A program made the position numbers and the translations under genes. The notes beneath the pieces were generated by a model. It was not told the origin of the DNA. It ran no database searches and was given only the letters and a program-made list of their open reading frames with translations. DNA of 57,597 nucleotides from positions 1 through 57,597 of the forward strand of contig JAMLIT010000022.1 in the NCBI GenBank assembly GCA_023954035.1. The letters run 5' to 3'. This DNA comes from Burkholderiaceae bacterium (GTDB lineage Bacteria > Pseudomonadota > Gammaproteobacteria > Burkholderiales > Burkholderiaceae_C). Numbering within the stretch: position 1 is the first letter of the stretch; each line of letters begins with the position of its first letter. Shown here in pieces: positions 3,893 to 57,597 of this stretch.

Positions 3893-5788
3893 ATGACCAG
3901 TTATGCCGAGTTTTACCGCCAATCCATCGATCAGCGCGACGACTTCTGGGCCACGCAGGCCCGGCTGGTCGACTGGCAGACCCCGCCGCAGCAGGTCTGC
4001 GACTACAGCCACCCGCCGTTTGCCAAATGGTTCGTGGGCGGCACGACCAACCTGTGCCACAACGCGGTGGATCGGCATCTGGCCGATCGGGGCGAGCAGG
4101 CGGCGCTGGTCGCCATTTCCACCGAGACCGACACCGAGCGCAGCTACAGCTTCCGCGAACTGCATGCCGAGGTGCAGCGCATGGCGGCCAGCCTGTTGGC
4201 GCTGGGCGTCAAGAAGGGCGACCGCGTCCTGATCTACATGCCCATGGTGGCTGAGGCCGCTTTTGCCATGCTGGCCTGCGCGCGCATTGGCGCGCTGCAC
4301 AGCGTGGTGTTTGGTGGTTTTGCCTCCGGGTCGCTGGCCTCGCGCATCGACGACGCCGAGCCCGTGGTCATCGTCAGCGCAGACGCAGGTTCGCGCGGCG
4401 GCAAGGCCGTGGCCTACAAGCCGCTGCTCGACGAGGCGATTCGCCAGGCCCGCCACCAACCCGGCGCGGTGCTGCTGGTCGACCGCGGCCTGGTTCCCAT
4501 GGAGCTGGAGTCCGGCCGGGACCACCTGTGGAACGACTTGCGCGCCGAGCACATGGACGCGCAGGTCCCCTGCGAATGGTTGGCGTCCACGCACCCGAGC
4601 TACACGCTGTACACCAGCGGAACCACGGGCAAGCCCAAGGGCGTGCAGCGCGACACCGGCGGTTACGCCGTGGCGCTGGCGGCCAGCATGAAACACATCT
4701 TCAATGCCCGGGCAGGCCAGACCTTTTTCGCCACCAGCGACATCGGCTGGGTGGTGGGGCATAGCTACATCATTTATGGCCCCTTGATCGCCGGGATGAC
4801 CACGATCATGTACGAGGGCCTGCCCACCCGGCCCGATGCCGGGGTCTGGTGGAGCATCGTCGAGAAATACCAGGTCACGCACATGTTCTCCGCGCCCACC
4901 GCGGTGCGCGTGCTCAAGAAGCAAGATCCGGCCTATCTCAAGAAGTACGACGTCTCCAGTCTCAAGGCGCTTTGGCTGGCGGGCGAGCCGCTGGACGAGC
5001 CCACAGCGCAGTGGATCAGCGATGCGCTGCAAGTGCCCATCATCGACAACTACTGGCAGACGGAAACCGGCTGGCCCATTCTTACGCTTGCCAACGGCAT
5101 CGAGCAGCAGACGACACGCTTTGGCAGCCCGGGCAAAGCCATGTATGGCTACCACGTCAAGCTCATCGACGAGGCCACCGGCCAGGAACTGACCGAACCC
5201 AACCAGAAGGGGGTGGTCGCCATCGAAGGGCCGCTGCCCCCGGGCTGCATGCAAACCGTGTGGCGCGACGACGAGCGCTTTGTCAGCACCTACTGGAGCA
5301 CCATTCCCGGCCGGCAGATCTACAGCACCTTTGACTGGGGCATTCGTGACGCCGACGGCTATTACTTCATCCTGGGCCGCACCGACGATGTGATCAACGT
5401 CGCTGGCCACCGCCTGGGAACGCGCGAGATCGAGGAATCCATTTCATCGCACCCCAACATTGCCGAGGTGGCGGTGGTGGGCGTGGCAGACAACCTCAAG
5501 GGCCAGGTGGCCATGGCGTTCGCCGTGCCGCGCGATGCCACGGGGCTGGAGGACGCGGCCGCGCGCATGAAGCTCGAAGGCGAAGTGATGAAGCAGGTGG
5601 ACAAGCAACTGGGCGCCGTGGCGCGCCCGTCGCGGGTGTTTTTCGTCACTGCCCTGCCCAAGACCCGCAGCGGCAAGCTGCTGCGTCGCGCCCTGCAGGC
5701 GGTCGCCGAGGGGCGCGACCCGGGCGACCTGACCACCATGGAAGACCCCGCGGCGCTGCAGCAGGTGCGCTCCATGGTGGCTGCATAG
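3893..5788 (+). CDS. prpE: Propionyl-CoA synthetase
   Basis: 631-residue acyl-adenylate-forming enzyme: propionate + ATP + CoA giving propionyl-CoA + AMP + PPi. The AMP-binding loop YTSGTTGKPKGVQRDTGGY, the YWQTETGWP motif and the C-terminal catalytic lysine motif KTRSGKLLRRAL are intact. RDTGGY and the length match PrpE rather than acetyl-CoA synthetase. The ATG at 3893 follows the ribosome site AGGAGA (3883-3888); an in-frame ATG 48 bp upstream lacks one. The gene stands alone, with no prpBCD nearby. Its product would feed either a methylcitrate cycle elsewhere or the propionyl-CoA carboxylase encoded at the right end of this window. The stop codon TAG overlaps a dispersed repeat that folds as a terminator. 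Confidence 0.96.
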   Translation: MTSYAEFYRQSIDQRDDFWATQARLVDWQTPPQQVCDYSHPPFAKWFVGGTTNLCHNAVDRHLADRGEQAALVAISTETDTERSYSFRELHAEVQRMAASLLALGVKKGDRVLIYMPMVAEAAFAMLACARIGALHSVVFGGFASGSLASRIDDAEPVVIVSADAGSRGGKAVAYKPLLDEAIRQARHQPGAVLLVDRGLVPMELESGRDHLWNDLRAEHMDAQVPCEWLASTHPSYTLYTSGTTGKPKGVQRDTGGYAVALAASMKHIFNARAGQTFFATSDIGWVVGHSYIIYGPLIAGMTTIMYEGLPTRPDAGVWWSIVEKYQVTHMFSAPTAVRVLKKQDPAYLKKYDVSSLKALWLAGEPLDEPTAQWISDALQVPIIDNYWQTETGWPILTLANGIEQQTTRFGSPGKAMYGYHVKLIDEATGQELTEPNQKGVVAIEGPLPPGCMQTVWRDDERFVSTYWSTIPGRQIYSTFDWGIRDADGYYFILGRTDDVINVAGHRLGTREIEESISSHPNIAEVAVVGVADNLKGQVAMAFAVPRDATGLEDAAARMKLEGEVMKQVDKQLGAVARPSRVFFVTALPKTRSGKLLRRALQAVAEGRDPGDLTTMEDPAALQQVRSMVAA

Positions 5789-5843
5789 CTATCAAAATAA
5801 GAGCTTCCAGCGCTTTCCCAACAAGCGCTGGGGCCTTTTTTAG
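5787..5843. repeat. Dispersed palindromic element, copy 1
   Basis: Copy of the roughly 55-bp family. It begins with GCTATCAAAATA, has the stem described under the terminator, and ends in a T-run. It occupies the whole gap between convergent prpE and the GGDEF/EAL gene, and both stop codons lie inside it. Confidence 0.9.
5807..5841 (+). terminator. Rho-independent terminator formed by repeat copy 1
   Basis: Perfect 9-bp arms CCAGCGCTT (5807-5815) and AAGCGCTGG (5823-5831) with a 7-base loop, followed by GGCC and a run of T. It should stop transcription leaving prpE. In the opposite direction the tail is AAGCTCTTATTTT, a weaker U-tract for the GGDEF/EAL gene. Confidence 0.8.
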
Positions 5844-8773
5844 CCAGATTCCGGACGCAGCCAGGCCCGCGGCGCCTGCCACTGGTGCAGCCAGTCCTGG
5901 AAGGCGGGAGCCGGCATCGGCCGGGCAATGAAGTAGCCCTGGGCCTGGGCGCAGCCCATTTGCAGCAGCATCTGCCCCTGGTCTTCGGTTTCCACGCCCT
6001 CGGCAATCACCTTGTAGCCGAAGGAACGGGCCAGGCCGATGACGCCCTGAACGATGGCCAGGTCCCCCGCCTCGTCCATCATGCCGCTGACGAAGCTCTG
6101 GTCGATCTTGAGCGTGTGCAGCGGCAGACGGCGCAGATAGGTCAGCGACGAGTAGCCGGTGCCAAAATCGTCCAGCGACACCGTAATGCCCAAGGCGCGC
6201 AGCTCGCGCAGGGTCTGCGCCACGCGGTCGAGATGAAACAGCGCCGTCGCCTCGGTGATTTCCAGGTCCAGCAGGTCCACCGGCGCCCGAGGATGGGCCT
6301 GGAGCTGCGCCGACATCCACTGCGCGAAGTCCTTTTGCTGCAGATGCAGGGCCGAGACGTTGATGCTCAGCGGGAACCGCAGCCCGGACTGGCAGAACCC
6401 CTCGATCAGCGAGAGGCCCGCGTCGACCACCCAGGCGCCAAACAGCGTCTCCAGTTCCGTCCCCTCGATAAAAGGCAGGAAGGCCCCGGGCGAGAGCACG
6501 CCGCGTTCGGGGTGGTTCCAGCGCGCCAGGGCTTCGGCCCCCACCAACGTCCCCAGGCGCATGTCGACCTTGGGCTGCAGGTACAGCTCGAACTGGCCGG
6601 CCGCAAGGGCTTCGCGCAAATGCCCCATCTGGGCGCGCATCTGAATCTGCTCGCGCTCCTGCGCCGCATCGAACTCGTGGAAGCGGTTGCGTCCCGCCTG
6701 CTTGGCGGCATACATGGCCTGATCGGCGTGGCGCAGCAAGGTGTCGGCGTCGGCGTCGTCCCGGGGAAACAGCGTGTAGCCTATGCTCGCCGTCACGCCG
6801 ATGGCTTCGCCCTGCAGGATGTAGGGCGCGGAAATGCTGTCCATCAGCCGCGCCAGCGCACGCTGGGCGTCTTCGCTGGAGGACAGCTCGGGCAAAAGAA
6901 TGGCAAATTCATCGCCGCCGAGCCGGGCCACGCAGTCCTGCGGGCGCATGGCGGCGCTCAGGCGCCGGGCGGCGCAACGGAGCAACTCGTCGCCGGTTTC
7001 GTGCCCGAAGCGGTCGTTGACCGGTTTGAATCCGTCGAGGTCCAGATAAGCCACGCCCAGCAACTGGCCGCTGGCTCGCGCCTGGGCCATGGCCTGCGAG
7101 AGCTGCTCGGCCATCAGCACGCGGTTGGGCAGGTCGGTCAGGGCGTCGTAGTGCGCGAGATGCTGGAGCAGGAGCTCCTGCTCGCGCTGGCCGGTCACAT
7201 CGATGGTGACCCCGAGCATGCGGCTTGGCTTGCCATCGGCGCCCCAGGCCACGATCTTGCCCAGGTTGCGCATCCAGCGCTGGCCTTCAAGGGCGCCCGG
7301 CACGGTGGTGATGAGGTCGAATGTGGTCGCCGGCGCGCGCGCGTGGCGCCGCAGCTCGGCATGGATGCGCGCCGCGTCGCTGGAGCCCGCGCATTGGTCA
7401 AAAGGCACAGCGTCCTGCGGCGAAAGGTCCACCCCGCGCATGCGGTGCCAGCGCGCGTCGCCAGTGACCAGGCCGGTGGTGATGTCGCAATCCCACAGGC
7501 CGACCGAAGCGGCTTCGAGCGTGAGGCTGAGCACGGCCTCGCGCTCGCGCATGGCTTCCTCAGAGCGTTTGCGGTCGGTGATGTCGTGCAGCGCAAACAG
7601 CCAGCACTCGGTGCTTCCCAGGGTGATTCTGCGCGTCGATTGCTGCACCGTCAGCGGCGGGCCCACGCGCGGGCGCACCACCGCTTCCACCGGCCGGTCC
7701 TTTTCGCCGCGCAGCGTAGGCTCGAGCACGTTCAGGCGCTCCTGGGTGGTATAGAGCCCCAAATCGATCACCGTGCTGCCTATGGCTTCGGCGCGTGCGA
7801 TGCCGGTCATCGCCTCCCATGCCGGGTTGACGTCGACATACACGCCGTCGGCGCAGCGCGTAATGCCCATGGGGTAGGGCAGCATCTGAAAGACGAGCCG
7901 AAAGCGCTGCTGCGATTCGCGCAGCGCTTGCTCGGCGCGGTGCGCGGCGTCGATGTCCTGGGCCACGCCGCGCATCTTCAGCGTGCGGCCATTTTCACGC
8001 ACCGCCTCGCCATGCACGCGCATCCAGCGCGGGCTGGCGTCGTCCACCCGAAGAATCTGCAGATCGAGCGCCCAAGACTTGCCCTCGCGCAGACCGGCCT
8101 GCAGGGCCGAGCGCAAGGCGGCCCGCCAAGGCGGCGCCACCATTTCCTCGATATAGTCGGACGGAGGCGGGCTGCCGTGGGGCAGGCCATGAATTTCGCA
8201 ACAGACGTTGGTCCAATGCACCAAGTTTCCCGAAGCATCCGCTTCCCATGCGCCCAAACGGGCGATGCGCCCGGCCTGTGTGAGCAGCGCGTTGGCGGCG
8301 AGAAGGTCGTCCTGCACCCGCTTTTCCCGCGTCATGTCATGGAAGACGAAGACCATGCAGGCCTGACCGTCCACCTCGACAGGGCACACCGACATCAGGC
8401 CGGGAACCTTGCGCCCCTGCGCGCGGGCCTTCATGCTCAGTTGATCGACCCTGCCGTCGCGCGCCAGCGCATCGAGCAGGCGCTTGCGTTCGGCGGCAGA
8501 TTCCCAGACTTGCAGTTCCAGCGAGGTGCGTCCCAGGACTTGCTCGCGCGTCAGACCGAGAAACGTGCAAAAGGCAGGATTGACCTCGATGTAGCAGCCA
8601 TCGGACACGCGCGTGATGCCGCAGGGGTCGGGCAGCGCCTGGGAGATGGCGCTGAATTTGGCCTCGGAGCTGAGCAGCGTGCTCAGGCTGCGAACGCTGC
8701 TTTCGTCGACCGCCTCCATCTCGCCGGGCGCCGCGCCGGGCAAGGGATCGTTGCGGGTAAGCGGAAGCGCCAT
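5840..8773 (-). CDS. PAS-PAS-PAS-PAS-GGDEF-EAL cyclic-di-GMP signalling protein
   Basis: 977-residue cytoplasmic sensor with about four PAS domains (approximately residues 38-155, 165-285, 290-405 and 410-535), a GGDEF diguanylate cyclase (about 545-700) and an EAL phosphodiesterase (about 715-960). The cyclase has an intact active site, RLGGDEFAILL, and an inhibitory site RPQD exactly five residues before GGDEF. The EAL half also looks active: GAEALARW, EITEATAL, DDFGTGYSS and EGVE are all present. No membrane segments are seen, so the input is probably intracellular (redox, haem or small molecule through PAS). Both activities could operate, with direction set by the PAS signals. No ribosome site is obvious before the ATG; translation could begin at Met19 instead. 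Confidence 0.93.
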   Translation of the reverse strand: MALPLTRNDPLPGAAPGEMEAVDESSVRSLSTLLSSEAKFSAISQALPDPCGITRVSDGCYIEVNPAFCTFLGLTREQVLGRTSLELQVWESAAERKRLLDALARDGRVDQLSMKARAQGRKVPGLMSVCPVEVDGQACMVFVFHDMTREKRVQDDLLAANALLTQAGRIARLGAWEADASGNLVHWTNVCCEIHGLPHGSPPPSDYIEEMVAPPWRAALRSALQAGLREGKSWALDLQILRVDDASPRWMRVHGEAVRENGRTLKMRGVAQDIDAAHRAEQALRESQQRFRLVFQMLPYPMGITRCADGVYVDVNPAWEAMTGIARAEAIGSTVIDLGLYTTQERLNVLEPTLRGEKDRPVEAVVRPRVGPPLTVQQSTRRITLGSTECWLFALHDITDRKRSEEAMREREAVLSLTLEAASVGLWDCDITTGLVTGDARWHRMRGVDLSPQDAVPFDQCAGSSDAARIHAELRRHARAPATTFDLITTVPGALEGQRWMRNLGKIVAWGADGKPSRMLGVTIDVTGQREQELLLQHLAHYDALTDLPNRVLMAEQLSQAMAQARASGQLLGVAYLDLDGFKPVNDRFGHETGDELLRCAARRLSAAMRPQDCVARLGGDEFAILLPELSSSEDAQRALARLMDSISAPYILQGEAIGVTASIGYTLFPRDDADADTLLRHADQAMYAAKQAGRNRFHEFDAAQEREQIQMRAQMGHLREALAAGQFELYLQPKVDMRLGTLVGAEALARWNHPERGVLSPGAFLPFIEGTELETLFGAWVVDAGLSLIEGFCQSGLRFPLSINVSALHLQQKDFAQWMSAQLQAHPRAPVDLLDLEITEATALFHLDRVAQTLRELRALGITVSLDDFGTGYSSLTYLRRLPLHTLKIDQSFVSGMMDEAGDLAIVQGVIGLARSFGYKVIAEGVETEDQGQMLLQMGCAQAQGYFIARPMPAPAFQDWLHQWQAPRAWLRPESG

Positions 8774-13498: not shown

Positions 13499-14866
13499 AT
13501 GGCAAGCGCTGCGCTCTGGCTTTACTCCCTCCTGGTCTGGCTGGCCCAGCCGCTGGTGCGCCGCAAACTGCGCCGCCGCGCCCGCGCAGAGAAAGGCTAT
13601 GGCACGGCGGTAGGGGAACGTTTTGGTTACTACGCCCCGCCGCTCGACAGCCTGATGATGCACAGCAGCACCAGCGGGCAGGGCAGTTTTCTGTGGATTC
13701 ACGCCGTCTCGTTGGGCGAAACGCGCGCCGCCGGCATCTTGCTGGCCGAGCTGCGTGCGCAATGGCCCGACATGCGCTTGCTGCTCACCCACGGCACCGC
13801 CACAGGGAGGGCGGAAGGCGAAAAACTGCTTCTGCCCGGCGACGTGCAGGTCTGGCAGCCCTGGGATACGCGCGGTGCGGTGGAGCGCTTTCTGCGGCAG
13901 TTTCATCCGGCCGTCGGCATCTTGATGGAAACCGAGGTCTGGCCGAACCTCGTTGCAGCATGCCAGGCGCGCGGCGTGCCACTGGTGTTGGCGAACGCAC
14001 GCCTGAGCGAAAAATCGCTGGCTTCGGCCCTGCGCATCGCCAGCCTCTCGCGCCCAGCCTACGGTCGCCTGAACGCTGTCTGGGCGCAAACCGACGCCGA
14101 CGCCGAGCGCCTGCGCCAATTGGGCGCCCCCGTGCAGGGCGTGCTGGGCAACCTCAAGTTCGACGCCGAACCCGACGCCGCCCAGCTCGCCCAGGGCCGA
14201 GAATGGCGCGCGGCCAGCGCTCGGCCGGTACTGCTGCTGGCCAGCAGCCGCGAAGGCGAGGAGGCGATGTGGCTGCAAAATTTTATAAAGAATAGGGCCC
14301 CAGCGCAGGCGGGGAAAGCGTTGACAGCTATCAATACAGAAGCAGTTGCAGCGCCTGGCAGCGTGCAATGGCTGATCGTTCCGCGCCATCCGCAGCGCTT
14401 TGACGAGGTCTTTGCCCTGCTCAGCAGCGCCGGCCTGCGCGTTGCCCGCCGCAGCCAATGGGGCCAGCCGCCGCAGGATGCCGATGTCTGGTTGGGTGAC
14501 ACCCTGGGTGAAATGGCGCTGTACTACGGCCTGGCCGACGTGGCACTGCTGGGTGGCAGCTTTGCGCCGCTCGGTGGTCAGAATCTGATCGAGGCAGCGG
14601 CCTGCGGCTGCCCCGTCGTGATGGGGCCCCATACCTTCAACTTTGCCGAGGTCGCCGAGCAGGCCTGCGCGGCAGGCGCCGCCCAGCGCGTGGCCGGCAT
14701 GGCCGAGGGCATGTTGGCCGCAGGCCAATGGGCGCGTGACCGCGCCCGGCTTGCCCTTGGACGCACGCAGGCGCAGGCGTTTTCCACGGCCCACCGGGGC
14801 GCGGCGGCGCGCACGGCAGCCGCCTTGAAGGCATTGCTTGCAACGCGGCCTTCGCGCGCCGGCTAG
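13499..14866 (+). CDS. waaA: 3-deoxy-D-manno-octulosonic acid (Kdo) transferase, with in-frame repeat insertion
   Basis: 455-residue membrane-anchored glycosyltransferase that adds Kdo from CMP-Kdo to lipid A precursor. There is an N-terminal hydrophobic anchor (about 3-20), the catalytic-base segment HAVSLGETRAAG near residue 70, METEVWPN near residue 142, VPRHPQRF near residue 295 and the C-terminal GGSFAPLGGQNLIEAAACG. Homologues are usually about 420-430 residues. The extra 25 or so residues lie at about 258-283 between EGEEAMWLQ and VQWLIVPRHP, exactly where a copy of the dispersed palindromic element sits in the DNA. The insertion is in frame and leaves the motifs intact, so the enzyme, which is normally essential, is probably functional. 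Confidence 0.95.
   Translation: MASAALWLYSLLVWLAQPLVRRKLRRRARAEKGYGTAVGERFGYYAPPLDSLMMHSSTSGQGSFLWIHAVSLGETRAAGILLAELRAQWPDMRLLLTHGTATGRAEGEKLLLPGDVQVWQPWDTRGAVERFLRQFHPAVGILMETEVWPNLVAACQARGVPLVLANARLSEKSLASALRIASLSRPAYGRLNAVWAQTDADAERLRQLGAPVQGVLGNLKFDAEPDAAQLAQGREWRAASARPVLLLASSREGEEAMWLQNFIKNRAPAQAGKALTAINTEAVAAPGSVQWLIVPRHPQRFDEVFALLSSAGLRVARRSQWGQPPQDADVWLGDTLGEMALYYGLADVALLGGSFAPLGGQNLIEAAACGCPVVMGPHTFNFAEVAEQACAAGAAQRVAGMAEGMLAAGQWARDRARLALGRTQAQAFSTAHRGAAARTAAALKALLATRPSRAG
14276..14345 (+). repeat. Dispersed palindromic element, copy 3, inside waaA
   Basis: The run AAAATTTTATAAAG, then GGGCCCCAGCGC, GGGGAAAGCG and ACAGCTATCAATA matches the family head, stem and tail. It is read in frame with waaA, giving NRAPAQAGKALTAINTEAV. 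Confidence 0.9.
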
Positions 14867-20852: not shown

Positions 20853-20913
20853 GGTTGCTATTCAAAATATAGCTTCCTGCGCTTGCTGGTATTGCGCTAA
20901 GGGGCTTTTTTTG
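20853..20913. repeat. Dispersed palindromic element, copy 5
   Basis: TTGCTATTCAAAATATAGC leads into TTCCTGCGCTTGC, then TTGCGCTAAGGGGC and a run of seven T (20906-20912). It separates the AhpD operon from the convergent tolC-like gene. Its right end encodes the last residues (KKAP) and the stop of the latter. Confidence 0.88.
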
Positions 20914-22231
20914 TCAAAAGTTGATCAATGGCCCGCACGGAATCCAGGTCCAGCGTGCCCGCCGCCTGGCGCAGCTTGAGCGTGCCCAGAAGCACGTTGT
21001 AGCGCGCCTGGGCCAGGTCGCGCTGGGTCTGGTAGAGCTGGCTCTGGGCGTTGAGTACGTCGATGTTGATGCGCACGCCCACCTGGTAGCCCAGCTGGTT
21101 GGCTTCGAGCGCGCTCTTGCTGGAGCGTTCGGCGGCTTCCAGGGCTGCGACCTGGCCACGGCCCGATTCCAGGCCGAAGTAGGCGGCGCGGGTGCTCTGG
21201 GCAATGGCGCGGCGTGTGGTTTCCAGATCGGCGCGCGCCTTTTCTTCGAGCGCCAGGGTTTCGCGCACGCGGTTCTGAACGGCAAAGCCGGCAAACAGCG
21301 GCAGGTTGAGTGCCACGCCCACGCTGGCGTTGGTGGTGCGCGAATTCACGCGAGGCGCTGTCACCGTGCCACGCGGGTAGTGGGCGACGCTGTAGCCGGC
21401 TTGCAGGTCCACCGTGGGCAGATGGCCGGTCTCGGCTTTTTGGGTCTCCAGCCGGGCCACGTCAAGGGCGATGGCGGCGGCGCGCACCTGCGGCTGCTCG
21501 CTTTGCGCGGTCTGAACCCAGGCAATGACGCTTTCGGGTGTGGGTTCGGGCAGGCGCGCGGGCTGGGCCAGCGGCACAGGTTCGGCGTTGGGGCGGCCGG
21601 TGACCTGCTCCAGCGCCAGGCGCTTGACGCGCAGATCGTTCTCGGCGGCAATCTCCTGCGCGCGCACCAGGTCAAAGCGTGCTTGCGCCTCGCGCGAATC
21701 GGTGATGGTGGAGGTGCCGACTTCAAAATTGCGCTTGGCGGCAGCCAGTTGCTCGCCCACAGCGGCCTTTTGCGCCTGCACGGAAGCGAGCGTGTCCTGC
21801 GCGGCGAGCACATCGAAATAGGCCTGACTCACGCGCACCAGCAAATCCTGCGTGGCGCCTTCGAGTTGTACGCGCGCCAGGTCCACGCCTCGCTTGCCCT
21901 GCTGGTTGGCAATGGCATTGGCGGGACGAAACAAGGGCTGCGAAGCGCTGATGGCCAGGTTCTGCGTGACTGGGTGCGCGCCGACCGGCGGGCGTGACAC
22001 CTCGGTATCGGCCACCGACCAACCCGCCGACAAGCCCGCGCTGGGCAGCAGGCCGGCGCGCGCCTGGCCGGCGCGGCCCTCGGCGGCGTCGAGCTGGGCG
22101 CGGGCCGATTGCCAGCTCGAATCGATCTCGCTGGCCGACTGCACCAGCTCCAGCAGGCTTTGCGCACGCGCGGGCGCCGCAAACGCGGCTGCCAGAGCCA
22201 GGGACAGGGAGACGAGCCGGATCGGATGCAT
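20897..22231 (-). CDS. TolC-family outer membrane efflux protein
   Basis: 444-residue outer-membrane channel of type I secretion and RND tripartite pumps. A signal peptide is clear (MHPIRLVSLSLALAAAFAAPARAQ, cleaved near residue 23, here given as its two parts joined). Two OEP repeats follow with long coiled-coil helices rich in Ala, Gln, Glu and Arg, such as the segment ending DVLNAQSQLYQTQRDLAQARYN. The length and motifs match TolC and not the lipoprotein NodT group, since no lipobox Cys follows the signal. It ends the efflux operon, 52 bp after the rhodanese gene. The C-terminal KKAP and stop codon come from repeat copy 5. Confidence 0.92.
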   Translation of the reverse strand: MHPIRLVSLSLALAAAFAAPARAQSLLELVQSASEIDSSWQSARAQLDAAEGRAGQARAGLLPSAGLSAGWSVADTEVSRPPVGAHPVTQNLAISASQPLFRPANAIANQQGKRGVDLARVQLEGATQDLLVRVSQAYFDVLAAQDTLASVQAQKAAVGEQLAAAKRNFEVGTSTITDSREAQARFDLVRAQEIAAENDLRVKRLALEQVTGRPNAEPVPLAQPARLPEPTPESVIAWVQTAQSEQPQVRAAAIALDVARLETQKAETGHLPTVDLQAGYSVAHYPRGTVTAPRVNSRTTNASVGVALNLPLFAGFAVQNRVRETLALEEKARADLETTRRAIAQSTRAAYFGLESGRGQVAALEAAERSSKSALEANQLGYQVGVRINIDVLNAQSQLYQTQRDLAQARYNVLLGTLKLRQAAGTLDLDSVRAIDQLLTKKAP

Positions 22232-22283
22232 GAAGTTCTTTCGAGAAGAGCGGTTCGAAAAAGAGAAAACCGAACAATGGGCT

Positions 22284-22625
22284 TCAGTAGCGCGGCACCG
22301 CCGGGTCGCATTCACCCGACCAGGCGTTGATACCGCCCGCAATATTGGCGACGTGAGCAAAGCCGTTGCGTTCCAAAAACAGCGCCACGTTCTGGCTGCG
22401 CGCACCGTGGTGGCACAGGCAGGCGACGGGCTGATCCGGGTCCAGTGCCGCCAGTTGCGCGGGCACACTGGCCATGGGAATGGCACGCAATTCAAAACCG
22501 TCTGCCTGGACGCTGGCCAGCGCCACCTCCCAGGGCTCGCGCACATCGAGCACCAGGGGCGCAGCGTCTGCGCCCTCGGCCGCAAACCACGCCGCCAAGG
22601 CGCTGGGACGAACCTGATCGACCAT
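22284..22625 (-). CDS. Rhodanese-like domain protein
   Basis: 113-residue single-domain sulfurtransferase. The active-site loop CHHGARS near residue 70 supplies the persulfide-forming Cys; LVLDVREPWE near residue 24 is the family N-terminal motif. The loop resembles GlpE/PspE-like cytosolic rhodaneses. No signal peptide. It lies 8 bp downstream of pcm and upstream of tolC, an order often seen in Burkholderiales. Natural sulfur donor and acceptor unknown. Confidence 0.92.
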   Translation of the reverse strand: MVDQVRPSALAAWFAAEGADAAPLVLDVREPWEVALASVQADGFELRAIPMASVPAQLAALDPDQPVACLCHHGARSQNVALFLERNGFAHVANIAGGINAWSGECDPAVPRY

Positions 22626-29900: not shown

Positions 29901-29919
29901 GGCGAGATTTTTGGGGGAA

Positions 29920-32578: not shown

Positions 32579-32627
32579 AGCGAGGCGACGGCGCGCGCGG
32601 TGTCCCGGAACATGCTCTGCGCAAAAA

Positions 32628-32690
32628 TTTCTAATAAAAATCAGCTTCAGCGCTTACTGCATATGCGCTGATAGCTGTCATATATATAGC
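32628..32690. repeat. Dispersed palindromic element, copy 7
   Basis: TTCTAATAAAAATCAGC then TTCAGCGCTTACTGC and ATATGCGCTGATAGCTG, ending in CATATATATAGC. It ends only 6 bp before the predicted TTG start of the AEC transporter and therefore fills its 5' leader. Confidence 0.85.
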
Positions 32691-32696
32691 AACGTC

Positions 32697-41977: not shown

Positions 41978-41993
41978 TCATTTGAGCTAGAAA

Positions 41994-42050
41994 TAACATT
42001 AAAAACCAGTTCTAGCGCTTATTGGTAAAGGAGGACACGCTATCAATTCG
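41994..42050. repeat. Dispersed palindromic element, copy 8 (with altered right arm)
   Basis: AACATTAAAAACCAGTTC and TAGCGCTTATTGGTAAAG match, then GGAGGACACG interrupts before the tail CTATCAATTCGATTG. It separates gloA from the ChaC-like gene. Confidence 0.8.
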
Positions 42051-42074
42051 ATTGCATCGCTGACGCAAACAGGG

Positions 42075-51986: not shown

Positions 51987-52181
51987 ATGACGCTCAATGT
52001 AGGAAGTTGGGATCGCGTGCTGCGCGTGCTGGTGGGCTTGGTGCTGATCGCCCTGGCCGCCACCGGCACAGTGGGCTTGTGGGGCTGGATCGGCGTGATT
52101 CCCGTGGCCACCGGACTGTTTGGTTTTTGTCCGGCGTATTCGCTGCTGGGAATCAAGACCTGTCCGATGAAAAAACACTGA
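51987..52181 (+). CDS. DUF2892 (YgaP-type transmembrane) small protein 2
   Basis: 64-residue DUF2892 protein. Two membrane helices (about 10-28 and 32-48) are followed by FGFCPAYSLLGIKTCPMKKH, in which FGFCPAY-LLGIKTCP is the canonical Cys pair of the family. The start is the ATG at 51987 after GAAAGGA. It resembles the first DUF2892 protein only in layout, so they are paralogues or separately acquired. Transcription ends in the repeat copy that follows directly. The Cys pair may take part in persulfide or thiol chemistry in the membrane, which is inference. Confidence 0.93.
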   Translation: MTLNVGSWDRVLRVLVGLVLIALAATGTVGLWGWIGVIPVATGLFGFCPAYSLLGIKTCPMKKH

Positions 52182-52192
52182 AAAGTTGAGAT

Positions 52193-52247
52193 AAAAATGG
52201 CTGCTAGCGCTTATTTGGTAAGCGCTAGCAGCTATTTTTTTGATAGT
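52193..52247. repeat. Dispersed palindromic element, copy 9 (near-perfect; terminator)
   Basis: Best preserved copy. Arms of 14 bases pair exactly (52200-52213, GCTGCTAGCGCTTA, with 52219-52232) and the stem can extend through A/T pairs to 52193 and 52239, followed by TTTTTTTGATAG. It should act as a bidirectional terminator between DUF2892 and the convergent VOC gene. Confidence 0.93.
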
Positions 52248-52287
52248 CTCCGCAGAATGTTCAAAGGGCTGCGCGGCTTGCGCGCAG

Positions 52288-52758: not shown

Positions 52759-54803
52759 GCGAACTCCAGAATGACCTGGTCGACCGTGAGCGACTCGCCC
52801 TTGCCGGCCACCAGTTTGGCCACCACACCATCCTGGGTAGCCAGCAGCACGTTTTCCATCTTCATGGCTTCGATCACGGCGAGCTTTTCACCTGCCTGTA
52901 CTTTCTGGCCTTCTTGTACCGCGATGTGCACCAGCAAACCGGGCATGGGCGAGAGCAGGAACTTGGAGAGGTCTGGCGGCGCTTTGTACGGCATCAGGGC
53001 GTGCAGGCGCGCGCCCAAGGGGGAGAGCACCAAGGCTTCGACTTGCGTGCCGTTGTGTGCAATGCGCAGGGCCAGCGGGTTCTTGCCCGCACCGCGCTCG
53101 ACCTGCGCGGTGAAGCCCTGCCCGTTGCAACTGCCCTGCACACGGACTTGGCCCAAGGTGGCAGTGCTCTCAATTTTGTAGCTTTTGTCGCCCACACGCA
53201 CTGCGCTAGAGCCCGATTTATCTTCAAAATCGGTCACCTCCACGGGATACTGCTGATGCCGGCCCTCGGCGCCCAGCACCACCACCACGAAAGCTTCGCC
53301 CACTTTGACTTCGTGCCCCGCCAACTGCCCGCTGATGCCCGAGGCGCGCGCGCGGTAACGCCGGTGCATGAAGGCGGCGAGCGCCACCAGGAATAGCGGG
53401 TCGTCGTGCGGCACGTCTTCGGCGACAAAGCCGTGGGCGTAATGCTCGGCAATGAAGCCCGTGTTGAATTGACCCGAGACAAAGCGCGGGTGGGCCAGCA
53501 GCGCCGCCTGGAACGGAATGCTGCTGCTGATGCCGCGGATGACGAAGCCATTGAGTGCGGCGCGCATCTTGTGGATGGCGTCGTTCCGGTCCACGCCGTG
53601 CACGATGAGCTTGGCAATCATGGAGTCGTAGTACATCGGGATTTCGCCGCCCTCGTACACGCCGGTGTCCACGCGCACGCCGTGCTTTTTCTCCGGTTCC
53701 GACTGGAACATGGTTTCCTCGGGCGGCTGGAAGCGCACGAGCCGGCCTGTGGACGGCAGAAAATTGCGAAAAGGGTCTTCGGCGTTGATGCGGCATTCGA
53801 TGGCCCAGCCGTCGCGCTTGACGTCCTGCTGGGTGAGCGGGAGCTTTTCGCCCGCTGCCACGCGGATCATCAGCTCCACCAGATCGAGGCCGGTGATGCA
53901 TTCCGTCACCGGGTGCTCCACCTGCAGGCGGGTGTTCATCTCCAGGAAATAGAAGTCCTGGTCCTTGCCGACGACAAACTCCACCGTGCCCGCGCTCTGG
54001 TATTTCACGGCCTTGGCCAGTTGCACGGCCTGCTCGCCCATGGCCTTGCGGGTGGCGTCGCTGATGAAGGGGCTGGGCGCCTCTTCGATCACCTTCTGGT
54101 GGCGGCGCTGGATGGAGCATTCGCGCTCGTTCAGATAAACGACGTTGCCGTGGCTGTCGCCCACCACCTGGATTTCGATGTGGCGCGGTTCCTGCACAAA
54201 CTTCTCGATGAAGATGCGGTCATCGCCAAAGCTGCTCATGGCTTCGTTCTGGCAGGCGGTAAAGCCCTCGAACGCTTCCTTGTCGTTGAAGGCCACGCGC
54301 AGGCCCTTGCCACCGCCGCCGGCCGAGGCCTTGATCATCACGGGGTAGCCAATGCCCTTGGCGATCTCCACCGCCTGTTCGGCACCGGCAATCGCGTCGT
54401 TGTAGCCGGGAATGGTGTTGACCTTGGCCTCGTTGGCCAGCTTCTTGGACGCAATCTTGTCGCCCATGGCCGCAATCGAATGCGCCTTGGGGCCGATGAA
54501 GGCAATGCCCTCTTCCTCGCAGCGCCGGGCAAAAGCTTCATTCTCGGAAAGGAATCCGTAGCCGGGGTGCACGGCCTGCGCGCCGGTCTGCTTGCAGGCC
54601 TGAATGATTTTTTCGGCCAGCAGGTACGACTCACGCGAAGGCGCAGGGCCCAGGCGCACGGCCTCGTCGGCCAGCTTGACGTGGCGTGCTTCCTTGTCGG
54701 CGTCGGAATAGACGGCGACGGTGGCGATGCCCATTTTCTTGGCCGTTGCGATCACCCTACACGCTATTTCGCCCCGGTTCGCGATCAGGATTTTGGTAAA
54801 CAT
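52755..54803 (-). CDS. pccA: Propionyl/acyl-CoA carboxylase alpha subunit (biotin carboxylase + BCCP)
   Basis: 682-residue subunit that carboxylates biotin with ATP and bicarbonate. Biotin carboxylase domain: [18 protein letters not shown] at the N-terminus, ATP-grasp [17 protein letters not shown] near residue 160, [18 protein letters not shown] near residue 230, and [16 protein letters not shown] near residue 286. A linker/BT domain follows, then biotinyl carrier with EAMKMEN near residue 650. AAGGAG precedes the ATG at 54803. The family includes acetyl-, propionyl- and methylcrotonyl-CoA carboxylases; meaB and the VOC gene in the operon favour propionyl-CoA. A short copy of its own 5' end lies immediately upstream. 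Confidence 0.94.
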
Positions 54804-56825: not shown

Positions 56826-56882
56826 AGTTTGCTACTTATTCAATAGCTGTAAGCGCTTGTCCTGATTGCGCTGAAAGCAGAT
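56826..56882 (-). repeat. Dispersed palindromic element, copy 10, overlapping the meaB 3' end
   Basis: Read on the minus strand it gives TTTCAGCGCAATCAGGAC, AAGCGCTTACAGCTATTG and AATAAGTAGC, corresponding to waaA copy 3. It encodes the last residues of MeaB and its stop codon at 56836. Confidence 0.88.
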
Positions 56883-57597
56883 TTCTTGCTGCGGTGGAGG
56901 CTGCAATGCGCCCTGCGGCCACGTCCTGCTGCAATTGCGGCAAAAGGGCGCGCACCTGCGGGTGCTGGCGAAACGCCTGCTTGAGACCGGCGTCGATGCG
57001 CTCCCACATCCAGGCCAGGGCCTGTTTTTCGCGCCGCGTGGCCAGACGGCCATTGGCCGTTTGCAGCTCGCGGTACTGCGAAACAGCATCCCAAAAACCA
57101 TCGACGCCCTGCCCCAGCAGCGCGCTGATTTGCAGCACCTTGGGGTGCCAGAGCGCCTTGTCGTGGCGGGAATGCTCCGGGTTGCCCTGCTGGCTGAGAA
57201 TGCGCAGGCTCGAAGTAATTTGCGCATCGGCCCGCATGGCGGCATGGGGGTCGAGGTCGGCCTTGTTGATCACCACCAGGTCGGCGATCTCCATCACGCC
57301 CTTCTTGATGGCCTGCAGGTCGTCGCCCGCATTGGGCAACTGCAGCAGGACAAACATGTCCGTCATGCTGGCGGCGGCCGTCTCGGACTGGCCCACACCC
57401 ACGGTCTCCACAATCACCACGTCGTAGCCGGCCGCCTCGCACACCAGCATGGCCTCGCGCGTCTTCTCGGCAACGCCGCCCAGGGTCCCGCTGCTGGGGC
57501 TGGGGCGGATGAAGGCCTGCTCGTGCACAGAGAGATGTTCCATACGCGTCTTGTCACCCAGGATGGACCCACCCGACACCGTGCTCGAAGGGTCGAT
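56836..57597 (-). CDS. meaB: Methylmalonyl-CoA mutase-associated GTPase MeaB (5' partial)
   Basis: Residues of a G3E-type P-loop GTPase that protects and reloads adenosylcobalamin in methylmalonyl-CoA mutase. The visible part runs from IDPSSTVSGGSILGDKTRM (switch region) through VETVGVGQSE, NKADLD (G4) and a long C-terminal helical domain. MeaB proteins are about 330 residues, so the N-terminal part with Walker A lies beyond the right edge; the GTG near 57579 is internal. The last dozen residues, SAQSGQALTAIE, come from a repeat copy. The upstream gene is expected to be methylmalonyl-CoA mutase. Downstream lie pccB, pccA and the epimerase-like gene, making a complete propionyl-CoA to succinyl-CoA unit. 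Confidence 0.94.
   Translation of the reverse strand: MDPSSTVSGGSILGDKTRMEHLSVHEQAFIRPSPSSGTLGGVAEKTREAMLVCEAAGYDVVIVETVGVGQSETAAASMTDMFVLLQLPNAGDDLQAIKKGVMEIADLVVINKADLDPHAAMRADAQITSSLRILSQQGNPEHSRHDKALWHPKVLQISALLGQGVDGFWDAVSQYRELQTANGRLATRREKQALAWMWERIDAGLKQAFRQHPQVRALLPQLQQDVAAGRIAASTAARNLLSAQSGQALTAIE

Follow-up and report, generated by a model that had tools for sequence, protein, structure and literature searches.

The window, i.e. the whole stretch of DNA analysed here (57,597 nt), carries the waaA gene, and a copy of a palindromic element lies inside its reading frame:

13499..14866, plus strand: waaA (3-deoxy-D-manno-octulosonic acid transferase), 455 aa; Pfam PF04413, E = 2.9e-58
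14277..14345, plus strand: full-length 69-nt palindromic element in waaA, codons about 260–283, located with a covariance model

Related palindromic copies elsewhere in the window were first seen by a repeat search, and a 69-position covariance model was built from 21 copies, none of them from waaA; five of them lie in the window and the others elsewhere in the genome, one of these proving to be in purK. The consensus of these 21 copies is AAAATTTTnAnTnAAATTGGCCTCTAGCGCTTATTnnGnAAGCGCTnGCAGCTATnAATTnnATAGCAA. With this model, which has no waaA copy in its building set, the element in waaA was matched without gaps over positions 1–69 (38.0 bits, E = 1.3e-5), and the reading frame runs through it unbroken with zero stop codons. 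Thus the two basic statements of the initial annotation, that waaA holds a full repeat copy and that this copy brings no stop and keeps the frame, were both borne out. Its figure of ∼25 added residues was too high, since the segment from GEE to RHP has 46 residues in the window and 32–33 in near relatives without the insert (L016–L018), a net gain of about 14.

A structure model of WaaA was built from 35 WaaA proteins (mean pLDDT 86.4), and the closest solved structure is that of Aquifex aeolicus WaaA (2xci, TM 0.59/0.73). In the predicted structure, the element codons 260–283 cover the end of a helix (254–264) and a low-confidence stretch (268–286) that precedes a strand (290–293) of the C-terminal domain. 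The insert is thus probably a flexible loop.

At E < 0.01 the model finds 10 sites in the window (11 rows, one being an opposite-strand duplicate), and the window copies have 33–49% GC. No window match was obtained in Rfam at gathering scores. Copies other than that in waaA are:

5786..5853, minus strand: element copy over the ends of two convergent genes, 57.7 bits
10322..10390, plus strand: element copy outside the examined Pfam-supported ORFs, 75.2 bits, used in the model
20855..20923, minus strand: element copy overlapping the 3′ end of the OEP efflux ORF (20897–22585), 40.1 bits
29905..29973, plus strand: element copy outside the examined Pfam-supported ORFs, 55.2 bits, used in the model
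32624..32692, plus strand: element copy near the 5′ part of the Mem_trans ORF, 62.8 bits, used in the model
41989..42057, plus strand: element copy directly flanking the ChaC ORF on its start side, 49.8 bits, used in the model
52181..52249, plus strand: element copy, terminator-like stem with a T run, 74.4 bits, used in the model, also in G003
53164..53232, minus strand: in-frame element in the propionyl/acetyl-CoA carboxylase alpha subunit (pccA), BT domain, 32.2 bits
56829..56887, minus strand: element positions 11–69 over the 3′ end of the MeaB ORF (56836–57579), 26.4 bits, also in G003

The element at 5786–5853 fills the gap between its two genes and covers both gene ends (AMP-binding ORF end at 5788, GGDEF/EAL ORF end at 5840). 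In the carboxylase alpha subunit, recognized by PF18140 and biotin carboxylase domains, the frame is open through the element, which is present in G003 and was not found in G025. A recoding test that is biased in favour of such copies also speaks for this coding copy, the second in the window. In the whole draft genome (G000), all 150 scored candidates match the element model (1444 in a first look). A core pattern with at most one mismatch occurs 155 times in the genome versus once for the reversed control. A separate search pattern with a 7-nt spacer gave 481/490 versus 94/96 for the control, and its version with a 9-nt spacer was wrong (128 versus 56–65).

Element-like spelling of waaA among relatives

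By WaaA, the nearest named relative of the genome is Simplicispira hankyongi (91%). A genus search gave a WaaA match in 22 of 26 genomes, and 16 of the 20 same-genus loci that cover the site carry the insert (L001–L015 and L023), so homologues often do not run straight through the site as had been supposed. The four loci without insert are L016–L018 and L022, the WaaA of the last being only 39% identical and perhaps no ortholog; it is the sole WaaA match of the element-rich genome G006, in which waaA may have been replaced. Since the element is present in other genomes (L002–L005), it is not a sequencing error. For the wider family, 293 of 299 genomes gave a WaaA match, and the loci taken were the best matches to the window WaaA (from 126 of these 293 genomes, and the 80 best named loci), a sample in which close relatives are over-represented.

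In the recoding test, 202 distinct waaA genes from 230 loci were used; five loci without the motif (L019, L020, L021, L024 and L304) were left out and 23 were dropped as identical over segment and flanks. Each insert was scored with a waaA-free matrix and compared with 300 synonymous recodings using the gene's own codons, and it was called element-like if it scored −5 or more and none of the 300 recodings reached its score. In this sample, which is biased to close relatives, 121 of the 202 genes were element-like, 18 were long and below this criterion, some narrowly, and 63 were short. The corresponding numbers for the 126 other-genus loci are 61, 15 and 50, and the named carriers include Simplicispira, Acidovorax, Diaphorobacter and Extensimonas. 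Median GC3 of the 121 element-like genes is 0.45 inside the element (5–95% range 0.31–0.61) and 0.86 in the flanks (0.73–0.94), and it is lower inside than in the flanks in every one of the 121. Among 103 strong waaA copies, the third codon position at column 52, in an alanine codon, is T with a frequency of 0.99, and that at column 64 is A with a frequency of 0.98. Judged by this spelling, the waaA element remains element-like as DNA, at synonymous positions too, to a degree well in excess of what the protein calls for. There is practically no chance that the segment is an ordinary protein loop of biased composition that resembles the repeat by accident, for although WaaA homologues vary in loop length, this idea is refuted by E = 1.3e-5 with an independent model and by 121 genes in which 0 of 300 recodings reach the score.

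Preservation of the hairpin itself was rejected, as the two innermost stem pairs form in only 0.37 and 0.46 of waaA copies versus 1.0 and 0.95 of the model copies. Long stems of other spelling were seen in the single waaA copies L053 and L061. Three loci of the g123 genus (L082, L097 and L098) have a waaA segment of insert length in ordinary codons (34–90 of 300 recodings reach the score, GC3 0.93–0.96), and their genomes have no model match.

In 94 of the 121 element-like genes the element begins at one common offset, 22. On a tree of the 202 waaA genes, 30 state changes are needed, 12 of them forced by starred branches, so the element may have been gained repeatedly at this one site. Aligned relatives have related sequence or none at the site, and not the unrelated sequence of equal length that an ancestral loop was expected to leave in all of them. 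The insert is no peculiarity of one gene or one genome: it is common to many genera, and copies lie in other genes too.

Other coding copies and the genome-wide repeat population

The purK gene of G000 holds a strong element copy (69.3 bits, itself a member of the model). Of 52 purK loci tried, 51 were taken in (L390 was unmatched), and the corresponding segment has 38 residues in 50 of these 51 and 41 in L382, whether it is element-like or not. PurK proteins of the solved structures 4izo, 4e4t and 10bm, which we take to be from Burkholderia, align without gaps at the element site and show little likeness there. With a protein matrix of the element's frame, 12 PurKs, most of them with ordinary codons, score from −9.1 to 17.7, and the background best is about 6.7 (208,353 windows, seven element-translation-like windows having been set aside by eye). 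The high-scoring PurKs may be former element carriers. The element may also have arisen in purK, or have met there the gene that already matched it best. In the purK loci L321–L344 and L371–L398 the natural PurK peptide was seen to resemble the element's frame. In four genomes (G009:C1:2738635-2739873, G021:C199, G044:C19 and G075:C34) the PurK match comes in two pieces with a short extra stretch, located around residues 128–146 in G009 and G021, which is possibly a second in-frame element.

In pbpC of the genome, a copy in reverse orientation lies in a linker. The pbpC of G015:C459 (L368) has a linker much longer than that of its relatives; the beginning of this linker is element-like, and a GTDA motif recurs in it. 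Of 234 elements sampled in stretches from seven lineage sets, 20 lie in coding-like frames by a GC3 heuristic, at least one of them (L430) in a spurious-looking frame; they include metG in two genera, tilS and folP, as named by Pfam and by eye. Pfam gave a domain in 7 of 10 coding-element segments, not always across the element. The two metG elements (L437:16165 and L471:18388) sit in the same linker of a likely methionyl-tRNA synthetase in two genera. Leaving L430 aside, all 19 coding copies score above 500 recodings, in a test biased in their favour, as these copies were chosen by element score and included in the scoring matrices.

How far the coding copies go along with the rest of the repeats was seen first within the genus, where 23 of 26 genomes have 90–150 matches among 150 scored candidates and the remaining three, G001, G016 and G022, have 0, 0 and 1. 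These three have no waaA insert and their purK is in ordinary codons (24–162 of 300 recodings reach the score, with a matrix that has one purK copy among its 21 rows); the pbpC linker is short in both genomes of the three that were checked. The region syntenic to the window holds zero elements in 58 kb of G001 and 49 kb of G022, and 8–13 elements in G025, G003, G009 and G010. In a WaaA+PurK tree of 41 genomes, from which the element columns were excluded, G001, G016 and G022 form a supported clade nested within element-rich genomes, and the enclosing clade has a support of 97, its other 17 members all being element-rich. One nested clade of the genus has thus lost the repeats, and its waaA, purK and pbpC copies are gone or in ordinary codons. 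Further lineages free of elements are G147/G239/G308, G043/G171, G105 and G117.

The 41 genomes are those with both waaA and purK loci at hand, and ‘rich’ here means as few as 3 matches. For the three traits of repeats, waaA and purK, 28 of them are all positive, 8 all negative and 5 mixed; an independent-pairs sign test has five pairs, too few to reach significance. Among the 126 other-genus loci, an element-like waaA is found in 51 of the 57 genomes that have 3 or more model matches, in 4 of 11 with 1–2 matches and in 6 of 58 without a match, these counts coming from 17 scored candidates per genome and a model from one genus, so that other dialects are under-counted. The six element-like waaA genes without a model match are those of G255, G188, G157, G079, G193 and G270; G079 has one element in 200 kb, and all six genomes may hold repeats of another dialect or be recent losses. 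Conversely, in the genomes with at least 3 matches whose waaA is not element-like, five have a short segment and one is long and below the criterion. The presence of coding copies is therefore linked to that of repeats in the genome at large, though not without exceptions.

Position and dialect of the repeats

The window elements at 5786, 10322, 20855 and 32624 have same-site counterparts in G025, G003, G009 and G010, and those at 29905 and 41989 have counterparts in G025 and G003 and none in G009 or G010. The mean identity of the counterparts to the window elements is 0.83 in G025, 0.77 in G003, 0.63 in G009 and 0.62 in G010, and that of paralogous element pairs is 0.58 (SD 0.07, 242 pairs). 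Orthologous intergenic copies in G009 and G010 are thus slightly above paralogues (0.62–0.63 versus 0.58), which indicates that homogenisation is incomplete. Between the window and its nearest relative G025, the elements at 5786 and 32624 are only 0.61 and 0.67 identical within mapped flanks of 86–93%, as if copies had been exchanged.

The sampled genomes spell their repeats differently. In G202 the stem reads AGCCCTT..AAGGGCT, and the waaA copy of G202 reads AGCCCAT..ATGGGCT. In a dialect test with six sets of genomic copies (the G079 set, with its one element, was dropped), the mean fit of waaA copies to their own set was the highest of 720 relabellings. Ranked singly, 15 of 27 waaA copies fit their own set best, as was the case in 8 of the 10 genomes for which a set from the genome itself or from its genus was available. 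The g1 set still contained one waaA copy, that of G010; removing it changes none of these three figures. By sequence comparison, then, the spelling of a waaA copy is like that of the repeats in its genus. Shared ancestry, or phylogenetic closeness, and base composition may contribute to this fit.

Proposed maintenance of the repeats and comparison with known systems

On balance, and by a narrow preference, we favour the reading that the waaA segment, a coding-resident copy of repeats widespread in Comamonadaceae, is kept by a candidate sequence-specific DNA process. The element would have entered or arisen in waaA once, before the genera split, and would later have been lost several times; it would be tolerated there by adding a flexible loop to the C-terminal domain of WaaA. 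The candidate process would act on coding and non-coding copies alike, most likely as repeat-to-repeat gene conversion or as a drive through biased import or recombination, similar to that of DNA uptake sequences; we infer that it is this process, not a need of WaaA for the loop, that keeps the waaA element. Once the population is lost, coding copies would in time be deleted or changed to ordinary codons. A bolder version, which we put forward tentatively and at less than even chance, has the 69-nt repeats of the Comamonadaceae evolving in concert in coding and non-coding positions and rewriting housekeeping genes in lineage dialects, with purK as a possible origin; it would span the almost length-neutral purK copy, the net gain in waaA and a putative DNA-level drive.

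We regard it as unlikely that each copy, those in genes among them, is a functional DNA site under selection, for example one to which a regulatory or nucleoid protein binds, or an intergenic terminator. In its favour, all four relatives have a copy at four orthologous intergenic positions (G009 and G010 having mapped flanks 73–87% identical), orthologous copies are slightly more alike than paralogous ones, copies inside and outside coding sequence are conserved in similar columns, and the copy at 52181..52249 is terminator-like. Against these stand the decayed stem of the waaA copies, with inner pairs at 0.37 and 0.46 versus 1.0 and 0.95, a whole clade without elements, and 2 of 5 further window sites at which mapped parts of G009 or G010 have no copy.

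Still less probable, in our estimate, is a plain selfish insertion, RPE- or MITE-like, in which one ancestral jump into waaA was followed by inheritance only, with no maintenance. A single waaA site and register with a net gain in length would follow from it, as would a palindromic repeat in hundreds of copies and the persistence of some waaA copies where few repeats remain. It is weakened by the recoding test, in which synonymous sites are element-like across genera, and by the purK copy almost without change of length; moreover, copies follow dialects and, in one clade, disappear together with the other repeats.

REP elements maintained by a Y1 transposase (REP/RAYT) are a very improbable explanation. 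In the cited part of one study (PMC3733652), REPs are small palindromes, mostly intergenic, some in ORFs and some between convergent genes, and the present element is likewise palindromic, dispersed and partly intragenic; however, its consensus, read by eye, has no GTAG or CGTC tag, and Y1 transposases do not track the repeats, Y1_Tnp being present in the element-free G001, G016 and G022 and not found in the element-rich G011. On this presence and absence, a RAYT was rejected as the maintainer.

Returning to the favoured reading of a DNA-level process, the behaviour of the element may be likened to that of Rickettsia palindromic elements (RPEs) combined with an uptake-sequence-like drive. RPEs are described in the cited part of PMC10969869 as palindromes of ∼150 bp found in Rickettsia in frame inside unrelated protein genes, with products presumed functional, and the element shares this habit through in-frame, stop-free copies in waaA and pccA of the window and in purK and pbpC of the genome. 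It differs from them in its length of 69 nt and its Comamonadaceae host, and further in retention at synonymous sites, dialects, genome-wide loss and a length-neutral overlay in purK. The initial comparison with an RPE-like repeat tolerated within a protein therefore holds for an in-frame, stop-free copy in a loop, but not for the idea that it is merely an insertion.

DNA uptake sequences of Neisseriaceae have, as given in the cited part of PMC3630211, many copies in and between genes, inverted pairs at terminators and lineage dialects. The element is likewise over-represented inside and outside genes, with inverted pairs at terminators and lineage dialects, the points of likeness being copy distribution and dialects; unlike an uptake sequence, it is a 69-nt degenerate palindrome and not a short word, and in waaA it brings a net gain of sequence. 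By analogy, RPEs would be the nearest known system in behaviour and uptake sequence dialects the nearest in evolution.

A literature search for the element in Comamonadaceae gave BRE as the sole candidate and no other description. According to the cited part of PMC3110155, BREs occur in Polaromonas, Acidovorax, Delftia and other Comamonadaceae, some wholly in coding sequence, with a full length of 75–91 bp, a mean of 69% GC in Bordetella and at most 29 copies per genome. The family and the occasional place within coding sequence are shared, whereas 69 nt, 33–49% GC and well over a hundred copies set the element apart from BRE as described there; with length, GC and copy number as the terms of comparison, it may still be identical with the BRE of Comamonadaceae.

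Rickettsia is the best-known source of palindromes in protein-coding sequence, and the usual view, in the cited part of PMC10969869, is that they are junk tolerated by proteins. Coding-resident elements are found here in housekeeping genes across the group, cultured strains of Simplicispira and Acidovorax among them, and the pattern suggests that some process holds coding DNA close to the repeat consensus over the time in which genera diverge. The nested element-free clade and several other element-free lineages are natural controls for repeat maintenance, and with such controls the question of how dispersed repeats are maintained becomes testable.
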